Part shown: positions 18,081-33,696 of the stretch, piece by piece
Layout: every line of letters starts with the position of its first letter
Position numbering within the stretch: the stretch's first letter is position 1
NCBI RefSeq assembly: GCF_902502825.2
Contig: NZ_LR723670.1
Coordinates: forward strand, 992,001-1,056,000
Reading direction: 5' to 3'
Length of the DNA stretch: 64,000 nt
Origin: Pseudorhizobium flavum
Lineage (GTDB): Bacteria; Pseudomonadota; Alphaproteobacteria; Rhizobiales; Rhizobiaceae
Notes under the pieces: generated by a model
What the model saw: only the letters and a program-made list of their open reading frames with translations
What the model was told of the DNA's origin: nothing
The model's database searches: none
Translations under genes and position numbers: made by a program

Positions 18081-19040
18081 ATGGCCCATCATCACCACCA
18101 CCACGGCAGCGAGGCCGGCGACCGCCGGATGATCTGGGCGATCGGCGTCAACCTCGCTCTTACTCTCGCGCAGATCGCCGGTGGCATCCTCTCCGGCAGC
18201 CTGTCGCTGATCGCCGACGCCCTCCACAATTTCAGCGATGCAGCCTCGCTGGTCATCGCCGCCTTTGCGCGGCGTATCGCCCGCCGTCCCTCCGACGCGA
18301 CGATGACCTTCGGCTACGTCCGGGCGGAGGTGGTGGCGGCGCTCATCAACTACACGACGCTGATCGTCATCGGCCTCTACCTCGTCTACGAGGCGGTAAT
18401 GCGCTTCATCACGCCCGAGCCGATCGAGGGCTGGATCGTCGTCGGCGTAGCGGTCGTGGCGCTGCTGATCGACCTCGTCACGGCGCTTCTGACCTACACC
18501 ATGTCGAAGGAGAGCATGAACATCCGCGCCGCCTTCGTCCACAATGTGGCCGATGCGCTTGGATCGGTCGGCGTCATCATCGCCGGTACGCTCATTCTCC
18601 TCTATGACTGGCAGATCGTCGATCCGATCGTCACACTCGCGATCGCCGGCTACATTCTCTGGCAGGCGTTTGCCGAAATCGGCGGGGCGATCCGCATGCT
18701 GATGCTGGGCACGCCTCCTGACGTCGACGTGGCGCAACTGATCGAGAGGCTCTGCGGCATAGAGGGCGTGACCGACATCCACCACGTCCACGTCTTCGCC
18801 ATCGACGAGCGGTTGACGGCGATGGAGGCTCACGTGGTGGTGGCAGAGGGCCACGGCGAGACGGCGGACGCTGTCAGGAACCGTCTGAAGCAGATCGCCA
18901 ACGCGGAATTCGGCATTGCCCATTCCACGCTTGAACTGACCATTGGCAGGTCATGCTGCGAGGCAGGCGAGGCGAAGGTCATCGGCCACCGCACCGGGCG
19001 ATCAGCGGGGACGGATGGCTCGAACGGCCATCAACACTGA
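18081..19040 (+). CDS. CDF family cation exporter with N-terminal His run
   Basis: 319 residues, ATG behind GAAGGAGG. It starts with an uninterrupted run of six histidines (MAHHHHHHG), then six membrane helices with the HxxxD zinc-site pattern (ADALHNFSDAASL in helix 2, VHNVADALGSVG in helix 5) and a C-terminal cytoplasmic domain (VTDIHHVHVFAIDERLTAMEAHVVV). It exports Zn2+, Co2+ or Cd2+ in exchange for protons, as CzcD-type CDF proteins do. The His run probably binds metal. It follows the P-type ATPase gene by 81 bases and may belong to the same unit. Confidence 0.93.
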   Translation: MAHHHHHHGSEAGDRRMIWAIGVNLALTLAQIAGGILSGSLSLIADALHNFSDAASLVIAAFARRIARRPSDATMTFGYVRAEVVAALINYTTLIVIGLYLVYEAVMRFITPEPIEGWIVVGVAVVALLIDLVTALLTYTMSKESMNIRAAFVHNVADALGSVGVIIAGTLILLYDWQIVDPIVTLAIAGYILWQAFAEIGGAIRMLMLGTPPDVDVAQLIERLCGIEGVTDIHHVHVFAIDERLTAMEAHVVVAEGHGETADAVRNRLKQIANAEFGIAHSTLELTIGRSCCEAGEAKVIGHRTGRSAGTDGSNGHQH

Positions 19041-20130: not shown

Positions 20131-20183
20131 TTCAGCTTCCTCTGGGTATTTGTGCCGTCAGGAGGAGCCGTCTTGAAACAACA

Positions 20184-20231
20184 AAGCCGCCTGACGGCGG
20201 CTTGTTGACATTGTGATCTGTCGAGCCGCCC
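20184..20231 (-). terminator. Attenuator: alternative antiterminator and terminator hairpins
   Basis: Reading the minus strand, segment A (20231-20224, GGGCGGCT) directly follows the uORF stop. Segment B (20203-20196, AAGCCGCC) can pair with A or with segment C (20191-20184, GGCGGCTT). B:C is an 8-bp stem with a 4-nt loop followed by TGTTGTTT, an intrinsic terminator. A:B excludes it. This is the classic layout of amino-acid-operon attenuation. Confidence 0.65.
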
Positions 20232-20232
20232 G

Positions 20233-20286
20233 TTACCGGTAGGCCCAAAAATACGTGCAGGAGATGGGTGCGCGTGCGTTGATCAT
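20233..20286 (-). CDS. Candidate leader peptide MINARAPISCTYFWAYR
   Basis: A 17-codon uORF ATG...TAA upstream of the GNAT gene. It encodes four clustered aromatic residues (Tyr-Phe-Trp, then Tyr) near its end. There is no Shine-Dalgarno, but the predicted promoter places transcription start on or within a base or two of the ATG, so the message would be leaderless, as is known for the rhizobial trp leader. A ribosome paused at the Tyr-Phe-Trp codons would leave segment A of the attenuator free; a ribosome at the stop codon would cover it. Confidence 0.6.
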   Translation of the reverse strand: MINARAPISCTYFWAYR

Positions 20287-20293
20287 GGCGAAG

Positions 20294-20322
20294 TAGATGC
20301 GCCGGTTTTGACAGGTTGTCAA
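20294..20322 (-). promoter_or_regulatory. Promoter of the GNAT leader, with a TTGACA-GGT-TGTCAA dyad
   Basis: On the minus strand a consensus -35 TTGACA (20322-20317) is 17 bases from CATCTA (20299-20294). Seven bases later comes the A of the leader ATG. The -35 is one half of a perfect 6-3-6 dyad (20308-20322), which may be an operator. Confidence 0.55.
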
Positions 20323-20352: not shown

Positions 20353-20709
20353 CTACGCCGCCTTCAGGGTAAAATCGACGCGAACCTCGTCATAGGGAAA
20401 ACTGACTTTCCCGGCTGCAGTCCTGTCTAGGATGCCGGCGGAGACAAGTGCGGTGACGTCGCCATGAACGGCTTTGATGTCACGACCGACCCTCCGCGCG
20501 ACCTCGCGAACGGCCATGGCACCTTGACCTGCCATGGCCTGTAGGATTTCCAGCCGCTTGACCGTCAGGACCTTCCAGAGAAGATCAATGGACACAAAGT
20601 CGATGCGTGTCCCCTGCGCGTGTCCGCCGAAGGCCGCAGCCACCTGCCGTTTGGTCTCCTGGATAGAGGAAAGGCCAAGCGTCACGACTGAGTGTGATCC
20701 TTCATCCAT
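20353..20709 (-). CDS. tumA: TumA-type antitoxin (HVO_A0114-family HTH protein)
   Basis: 118 residues with a winged-helix DNA-binding core: VLTVKRLEILQAMAG, then AVREVARRVGRDIKAVHGDV and ALVSAGILDRT, ending in a small sheet (VSFPYDEVRVDFTL). This is the antitoxin usually found with TumE-type toxins. The coding region overlaps the 3' end of the TumE gene by 28 bases, so the toxin gene comes first. It probably both neutralises TumE and represses the operon. Confidence 0.82.
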   Translation of the reverse strand: MDEGSHSVVTLGLSSIQETKRQVAAAFGGHAQGTRIDFVSIDLLWKVLTVKRLEILQAMAGQGAMAVREVARRVGRDIKAVHGDVTALVSAGILDRTAAGKVSFPYDEVRVDFTLKAA

Positions 20710-20978
20710 AGTTCGACGTCCTTCCAGAAATCGTCCTGCAGTCGCTCCAAATCCACATAAGCGTAATCGACCTCATCGTGGCCCAGGTGCTTATGATCTC
20801 CCTTGCCGGCTTCGTTGTCGTATCGCAGTACACAGGTCTCGTTCGAGACCAGCGCCAGGCTGTACTTGATGTTGTGCGGGCTGCCACGAACCGGCTTCGG
20901 CACCTGCCATATCCTGATATCCACGAAGCATGTCTCCGTAAGGGTCAGACGTTTCCGCAGCAGAGGCTTCGCCTTCAT
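20682..20978 (-). CDS. tumE: TumE-type toxin (DUF6516 family)
   Basis: 98 residues: an N-terminal RKRLTLTETCFVDIRIWQVP strand segment, the SPHNIKYSLALVSNETCVLRYDNEAGKGDHKHLG block typical of TumE proteins, and a C-terminal helix (VDLERLQDDFWKDVELW). Overlap with the downstream HTH antitoxin gene supports a toxin-antitoxin pair. The toxic mechanism is not evident from the sequence. A start further in is possible, but the first ATG gives the usual length. Confidence 0.82.
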   Translation of the reverse strand: MKAKPLLRKRLTLTETCFVDIRIWQVPKPVRGSPHNIKYSLALVSNETCVLRYDNEAGKGDHKHLGHDEVDYAYVDLERLQDDFWKDVELWMKDHTQS

Positions 20979-21009: not shown

Positions 21010-21423
21010 TCAATGCTCCGCCTCGCACATGCCGTGGTCGGAAAGCGCCCGGATCACGTAGCAGTCCTCGACCGAATGACCGCTGCAGTGGGAGACGATT
21101 CGCTCCAGCTCCTGTTCCAGCTTGCTGAGCTTGGCAATCTTCTCCCGCACCGCAGCCAGGTGTTCCTCGGCAATGCGGTCAGCACCAGCGCAGGGCGCGT
21201 CCGGGTGGCGGCTGAGCGCGATCAGGTCGCGGATCGCCGGAATGTCGAAGCCGAGATCGCGCGCATGACGGATGAAGGCGAGGCGCTCCAGGTCGGTCTT
21301 CTCGTACCGCCGTTGATTCCCCTCCGACCGGTGCGCGGCGCTGATCAACCCCATCTGTTCGTAATAGCGGATGGTCGGCACCTTCACCCCGGTCCGCCGC
21401 GAAAGATCACCGATCGAATACAT
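21010..21423 (-). CDS. MerR-family metal sensor (CadR/PbrR/ZntR-like)
   Basis: 137 residues with an N-terminal MerR helix-turn-helix (MYSIGDLSRRTGVKVPTIRYYEQ), a dimerisation helix and metal-binding cysteines at about 78 (DAPCAGAD), 113 and 121 (HCSGHSVEDC), matching the three-cysteine pattern of Cd/Pb/Zn sensors. A C-terminal Cys-His tail (MCEAEH) adds possible ligands. It diverges from a CDF exporter gene across a MerR-type promoter with a 19-bp spacer, so it most likely activates that exporter in response to a soft divalent metal. Confidence 0.9.
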   Translation of the reverse strand: MYSIGDLSRRTGVKVPTIRYYEQMGLISAAHRSEGNQRRYEKTDLERLAFIRHARDLGFDIPAIRDLIALSRHPDAPCAGADRIAEEHLAAVREKIAKLSKLEQELERIVSHCSGHSVEDCYVIRALSDHGMCEAEH

Positions 21424-33346: not shown

Positions 33347-33696
33347 GTAGCAGTCCTTTCAAGCTATAGGTGTCTTGGACATTCCTGTCGGAGCCGCATC
33401 GGTGGTGGCCCAGACATTCATGCCGCGACGATCAAGACAATACCGCGGGTCGCATTGTCAGCCCCACCTATACGCCTTCGACCCCCACGGCGTTCCATTT
33501 GGCCACCCGTTCGCGCGCGGCGTTTCCGTCAGATGCTTCACGCAATTGGCGTCAGCCGCTCTTCGACTTGAACTCGCGCGATCTCCATCCCAGATGTGGC
33601 TTGACCCGCTGGTCCGGGCCCCTCTGGCGTAGCTGTCGGCGCTCACGCGATGTCGGACCGTTTCCGACAAGTTGCCGATAGTAAGAGGATCTAGCG
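33347..33696. other. 350-bp gap with no convincing gene
   Basis: Open frames here overlap each other on both strands and show no Shine-Dalgarno, domain or consistent codon use. The divergent promoters of the Ntn hydrolase and of the small gene at 33697 must lie here. The stretch may hold decayed sequence. Confidence 0.5.

Follow-up and report, generated by a model that had tools for sequence, protein, structure and literature searches.

The region upstream of a GNAT acetyltransferase gene of Pseudorhizobium flavum raises a simple question: why should a short leader with consecutive tyrosine, phenylalanine and tryptophan codons, organized like a trp-type attenuator, precede such a gene? By family assignment, neither the GNAT nor the DJ-1-like protein encoded after it makes or charges the amino acids that would be sensed. 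The locus is on the minus strand of the window, i.e., the whole stretch of 64,000 nucleotides that was analysed (contig NZ_LR723670.1, positions 992,001 to 1,056,000). An earlier note on this DNA had placed a candidate leaderless attenuator at 20184..20322. The element is present there, but it reaches further, to the GNAT Shine-Dalgarno sequence (SD, at about 20133), and comprises two parts that had been missed, a hairpin sequestering this SD and a segment (segment 5) complementary to a hairpin loop. As argued below, it is very probably a leaderless ribosome-mediated attenuator, responding to how well the cell is supplied with aromatic aminoacyl-tRNAs and combining transcription termination with SD sequestration. 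Its features are listed in Table 1.

Table 1. Features of the leader and of the genes that follow it (window coordinates).
Feature	Position	Strand	Remarks
-35 box, TTGACA	20317..20322	-	Read from the sequence
Weak -10 box, CATCTA	20294..20299	-	17-nt spacer to TTGACA; 7 nt to the uORF ATG
Leader uORF, MINARAPISCTYFWAYR then stop, 17 codons	20233..20286	-	ATG 20286-20284, TAA 20235-20233
Sensor codons TAT TTT TGG (Tyr-Phe-Trp)	20245..20253	-	Additional Tyr codon at 20239-20241
Segment 2, GGGCGGCT	20224..20231	-	Partner of segment 3
Small hairpin GACA...TGTC within the 2:3 stem	20207..20222	-	Pairs in 46/46 representative close relatives
Segment 3, AAGCCGCC	20196..20203	-	Pairs with 2 (antiterminator) or 4 (terminator)
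Segment 4, GGCGGCTT, then TGTTGTTT	20184..20191	-	Terminator-like hairpin with segment 3, GTCA loop
Loop and flanks of hairpin 3:4, GCCGTCAGG	20190..20198	-	Complementary to segment 5
Segment 5, CCTGACGGC	20154..20162	-	Complement of the 3:4 loop; 5' end also pairs with the GNAT SD
SD-sequestering hairpin, left arm CGGCTCCTC, right arm GAGGAAGCTG	20133..20170	-	Covarying arms
GNAT acetyltransferase, 162 aa	19642..20130	-	Controlled gene; start codon 53 nt after segment 4
DJ-1/PfpI-family protein, 189 aa	19056..19625	-	Probable second operon gene

The promoter that had been proposed (TTGACA-N17-CATCTA) holds as regards its two boxes and their spacing. The -35 box is conserved, TTGAC lying 35 or 36 nt 5' of the ATG in all 90 unique close-relative rows (window included), and TTG(A/C)C 34-39 nt 5' of it in 180 of the 185 elements of the wider unique set. 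The -10 box, on the other hand, is poor, with three of six matches to TATAAT in 133 of 175 elements, two in 21, and four or five in 21; over 174 rows aligned on TTGAC, position 2 of this hexamer is A in 97% and position 3 is T in 88%. A transcript starting 6-7 nt past the -10 box would coincide with the uORF ATG. Since SD-like tetramers are found 5' of the uORF in only 47 of 185 elements, near the chance level estimated by hand, and since the promoter spacing is fixed, the uORF is probably leaderless. A search of the region against Rfam yielded no family at gathering score, the best sub-threshold match being isrK (14.7 bits versus 50).

Conservation of the leader was assessed on 110 loci issued from two GNAT-protein searches, the second one limited to the best 80 of 231; these include many near-duplicates, and amount to 90 unique sequences counting the window. 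The earlier note had described a 17-codon uORF with Tyr-Phe-Trp codons, and had suggested looking for such a peptide and for covarying hairpins at orthologous GNAT loci. The aromatic cluster is indeed conserved: a relative of the uORF is located 5' of the orthologous GNAT gene in each of the 110 fetched loci, as an ORF ending in YFW(A/L)(Y/F)(R/L) and a stop, at most 400 nt upstream. The motif TATTTTTGG is present in 89 of the 90 unique sequences, and TACTTTTGG in the remaining one. As to the operon proposed with DJ-1, DJ-1 is no fixed partner and follows GNAT in 84 of the 174 loci with enough sequence (not deduplicated). In the window, the DJ-1 product matches Pfam DJ-1_PfpI (1.1e-26) and PDB 2fex (6e-73). 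Further along, the cation-efflux protein at 18081-19040 (+) has a predicted start, MAHHHHHHGS, that is purification-tag-like but genomic, and an Rfam terC RNA is found at 33606-33665 (+), with 53.7 bits for a gathering score of 39.9.

Among 394 sampled genomes of the family (Rhizobiaceae), 101 encode the GNAT protein. A covariance model of the region (R1) detected the element in 95 of the 394, all of them GNAT carriers, and the six GNAT genomes that it missed also have leaders, read by eye. A broader model (R2) matches all 101 GNAT genomes at E ≤6.4e-6, and 17 non-GNAT genomes only at E 8.8e-5 or weaker. The matching of genome lists and the adjacency of hits to GNAT were judged by eye, and adjacency at the fetched loci by script. 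With a leader in 101 of 101 GNAT genomes, the element therefore goes with the gene. In Sinorhizobium meliloti, the leader MIKNAPISSVYFWLFR, followed by a stop, lies unannotated 5' of a gene annotated as GNAT. One record of this species (strain Ak57, L297, CP090106.1) is titled plasmid pSymB, yet is chromosome-sized (3.72 Mb), and its title may be swapped. After removal of two false hits, the wider set counts 185 unique elements (four tyrS-type loci were missed by the selection rule), of which 172 precede GNAT, nine tyrS and three a prephenate-dehydrogenase-like gene, with one orphan.

All 172 unique GNAT leaders contain Y, F and W, as YFW in 157 and as WYF in 15; in the latter, TGG precedes TAT TTT, and ACG comes after. 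Five of the six leaders missed by R1 also hold the three residues, and one divergent leader reads WFYY; leader L292 is the exception, with Tyr and Phe present and no Trp. On a tree of 76 GNAT proteins, three changes of aromatic order are needed, at least two of them forced by well supported branches. The residues flanking the cluster vary between leaders. In each of the 185 unique elements, the last codon of the cluster is 12 nt (YFW) or 15 nt (WYF, YY) 5' of the stop, a count to be read knowing that the scan used to pick elements demanded at least two aromatics in the uORF tail. For Phe, every one of the 172 GNAT leaders uses TTT, versus 42 of the 865 Phe codons within the GNAT genes.

Downstream of the uORF, segments 2 and 4 compete for the shared segment 3, giving mutually exclusive pairings with linked three-way changes, and the alternative pairing of trp type put forward earlier is borne out by compensatory changes in the stems. 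For example, the outer position triple 2-3-4 is U-A-U in 27 of 46 representative close relatives and C-G-C in eight, the outer 2:3 pair being broken in six of the 46. In these relatives, the proportion of paired cells is 100% for the 3:4 helix, compared to 97% for 2:3. In distant relatives, 2:3 holds a core of about five pairs and loses its outer pairs (86% of cells paired), and the small GACA...TGTC hairpin is not retained in that form. For the window, the predicted fold of the region around 3:4 (20170-20210) has an energy of -19.7 kcal/mol and a z of -4.4 versus shuffles.

Segment 5 is the perfect complement of the 3:4 loop region, and it also opens the hairpin that holds the GNAT SD. Changes in the loop are generally matched in segment 5 (GCCATCAGG with CCTGATGGC, GCCTTCGGG with CCCGAAGGC, GCCGCAAGG with CCTTGCGGC). 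In a test on 36 sequences, in which each of 18 variants of the loop was represented by at most four, true partners reach -15.9 kcal/mol versus -13.2 (sd 0.5) when swapped, and none of 10,000 permutations was as good. The own segment 5 beats foreign partners in 32 of the 36 sequences and pairs no better in four, and some sequences, e.g., L012 and L086, are mismatched. The arms of the SD hairpin are unrelated between lineages and still complementary (CGGCACC/GGATGCCG, GCGTCC/GGACGC, ACTTTCCC/GGGAAAGT, TCCTC/GAGGA), with -10.4 versus -8.2 (sd 0.4) when permuted, and again 0 of 10,000 as good (31 groups). Both permutation tests take groups as exchangeable, with no correction for descent. In 168 of 184 elements, half or more of the SD is paired, compared to 63% when the preceding sequence is shuffled.

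In the mechanism inferred from these features, transcription would begin on or beside the uORF ATG, and RNA polymerase would be followed by ribosomes translating the leaderless uORF. As long as charged tRNA-Tyr, tRNA-Phe and tRNA-Trp are ample, the ribosome would be found at the stop and cover segment 2, leading to the 3:4 terminator-like hairpin, and segment 5 would pair with the GNAT SD, keeping both read-through and translation low. The spacing is compatible with the ribosome footprint: a stop-codon ribosome covers about 12 nt past the first base of the stop, and the GCGGC core of segment 2 begins 5-6 nt past this base in 181 of 184 elements, so that it would be masked and the 3:4 and SD hairpins could form. 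Upon a shortage of any one of the three charged tRNAs, the ribosome would pause on Tyr-Phe-Trp and leave segment 2 free, even when held at the last codon of the cluster. The 2:3 pairing would then form first and block 3:4, the released GUCAGG would pair with segment 5, and capture of the latter would free the SD, allowing GNAT (and DJ-1 where present) to be made.

Minimum-energy folds of the growing window transcript give 2:3 at 42-48 nt (-17.4), 3:4 at 54 nt (-19.7) and 4:5 at 78-102 nt, the complete transcript adopting the OFF fold (-37.7); this succession is compatible with read-through upon stalling. Equilibrium folding favours 3:4 in each state on average, and its median probability is still 0.9 when a ribosome is stalled. 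In only 44 of 88 sequences does a stall at W open the SD more than a ribosome at the stop, and forcing 2:3 (ON) costs a median of 3.1 kcal/mol relative to OFF (183 elements). Equilibrium folding does not predict the ON state, and switching would therefore call for kinetic control, the usual assumption for attenuators.

The strong covariation of the SD hairpin and of the 4:5 pairing would also suit a control of translation only, in which 3:4 is not a working terminator and keeps the loop from segment 5, a stalled ribosome freeing the SD. The U-tract past 3:4, which is imperfect and interrupted (TTTGTTGT), points the same way. This alternative is nevertheless rather unlikely, as 3:4 is GC-paired and stable, with a tail rich in T in the aligned relatives, and as transcription is reported to be terminated by trpL, a rhizobial element built along similar lines (PMC7298713). 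Action in trans of the leader peptide or of a terminated small RNA, with cis-control of GNAT being secondary, has a precedent within Rhizobiaceae, namely peTrpL and rnTrpL of S. meliloti (PMC7298713), and Ile as second residue in 179 of 185 leaders could be read in this sense. It is improbable, given that the element adjoins GNAT, tyrS or a tyrA-like gene in 184 of 185 unique cases, and that its 3' part is fitted to the SD of the next gene.

The combined attenuator gains a further argument from related leaders in which the codon identity tracks the downstream gene. Before tyrS, the leader reads YY in nine unique elements and YFYY in three more, outside the count of 185; before the tyrA-like genes, it reads YY in three. 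Of the tyrS products, five were tested: four score above the curated cut-off for TyrRS, and the fifth is a truncated copy. The three dehydrogenase-like proteins match below cut-off. For these tyrS and tyrA-like elements, the controlled gene does make or charge the sensed amino acid. The three leaders before prephenate-dehydrogenase-like genes (L183, L184 and L186) are from three other families of the order, and may be attenuators by which Tyr specifically controls its own synthesis. Two TyrRS matches above the cut-off are present in each of ten genomes where tyrS is under leader control, and the leader-controlled copy is therefore a spare one. In four further genomes, the spare tyrS is split, truncated, missing or decayed: it is truncated in G315 and split in G434, G130 retains a leader without tyrS, and both are decayed in G594 (such decaying cases are listed under L153, L167, L188 and genome G434). 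No such leader was found at the housekeeping tyrS or at the class II DAHP synthase gene (ten genomes each) by a scan that recovers 80 of 80 leaders of GNAT genes, as well as the tyrS leader on which it was tested; these leaders therefore do not define a general aromatic regulon in the bacteria concerned.

These observations bear on the signal, for which aromatic tRNA charging and a ribosome-targeting drug had both been considered. In the second case, the leader would be a drug-inducible arrest peptide of the erm/cat/cml kind, where an antibiotic bound in the tunnel stalls the ribosome at YFW and induces a drug-inactivating acetyltransferase. In favour of this, some drug-modifying enzymes have the GNAT fold, close relatives show no variation in YFW, and SD-sequestering hairpins are typical of drug-inducible leaders. 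However, a nascent-chain motif would hardly tolerate the changes of aromatic order (YFW, WYF, WFYY) and the varying flanking residues, and an identical architecture with Tyr-Tyr precedes tyrS and the tyrA-like gene, which makes the drug reading very improbable. Sensing of aromatic aminoacyl-tRNA supply fits better and is favoured, because the order of Y, F and W shifts between genera while their composition stays, and because the Tyr-only versions precede tyrosine genes.

Upstream of the leader, two genes (20353-20978, -) separate it from a MerR-type regulator gene (21010-21423), one for a TumE-like toxin and the other for a helix-turn-helix protein of the HVO_A0114 type. Of the 110 loci, only 23 have a relative of tumE and only 23 one of the HVO_A0114 gene, versus 74 for merR (second search: best 80 of 231), so that the pair looks like a variable insertion. 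The same-strand gene ends at 20353, immediately 5' of the promoter, and could suggest a plain terminator of this pair with a chance uORF, a reading of negligible probability that is contradicted by the conservation of the leader in 110 of 110 loci.

The attenuator proposed here can be compared with several known systems. In the E. coli trp and pheST-type attenuators, the position of the ribosome on a short leader also selects antiterminator or terminator, but these leaders have an SD and control biosynthesis or housekeeping synthetase genes, unlike the GNAT element. In ermC and cat, a stalled ribosome frees the sequestered SD of a resistance-type gene, as proposed for the GNAT element; the arrest there is drug-dependent and of the nascent-chain type, whereas the GNAT leader conserves codon composition and not peptide order. 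Bacillus TyrZ, a second TyrRS under T-box control, is an accessory synthetase induced by uncharged tRNA-Tyr, in which it resembles the leader-controlled tyrS; the T-box binds the tRNA directly, whereas the sensor of the leader-controlled tyrS would be the translated leader.

Ribosome-mediated attenuation itself is known, and the nearest known design is the leaderless S. meliloti trpLE(G) attenuator (rnTrpL, peTrpL), with a 14-codon uORF at the 5' end of the transcript (PMC7298713 and PMC10117765). Both occur in Rhizobiaceae, with a leaderless uORF (predicted here), consecutive aromatic codons, and mutually exclusive antiterminator and terminator. In trpL, however, the codons are for Trp alone and the gene under control belongs to Trp biosynthesis, whereas the GNAT element has all three aromatics, a loop-complementary segment 5 and an acetyltransferase as its target. 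The GNAT element also carries an SD-burying hairpin. A literature search, carried out largely outside subscription journals, returned no description of the element, of a three-amino-acid sensor, of the extra segment or of these targets, nor was a terminator-like hairpin loop competing for an anti-SD segment met as a design.

As to function, it can be proposed tentatively, and with some doubt, that widespread alphaproteobacterial five-segment leaderless attenuators sense the failure of aromatic aminoacyl-tRNA and switch on accessory protective genes: GNAT (with DJ-1) would neutralize a compound that blocks aromatic supply or use, and the Tyr-Tyr leaders would provide a spare TyrRS. The sequence encodes a prediction for an uncharacterised and widely conserved operon, GNAT/DJ-1, which would be used when charged Tyr, Phe or Trp tRNA is short; as S. 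meliloti carries the element, this prediction is directly testable there. The shared RNA architecture links this operon to accessory tyrosyl-tRNA synthetases. If the proposed function is true, the system would be an inducible means of protection from natural compounds that inhibit aromatic metabolism or charging.
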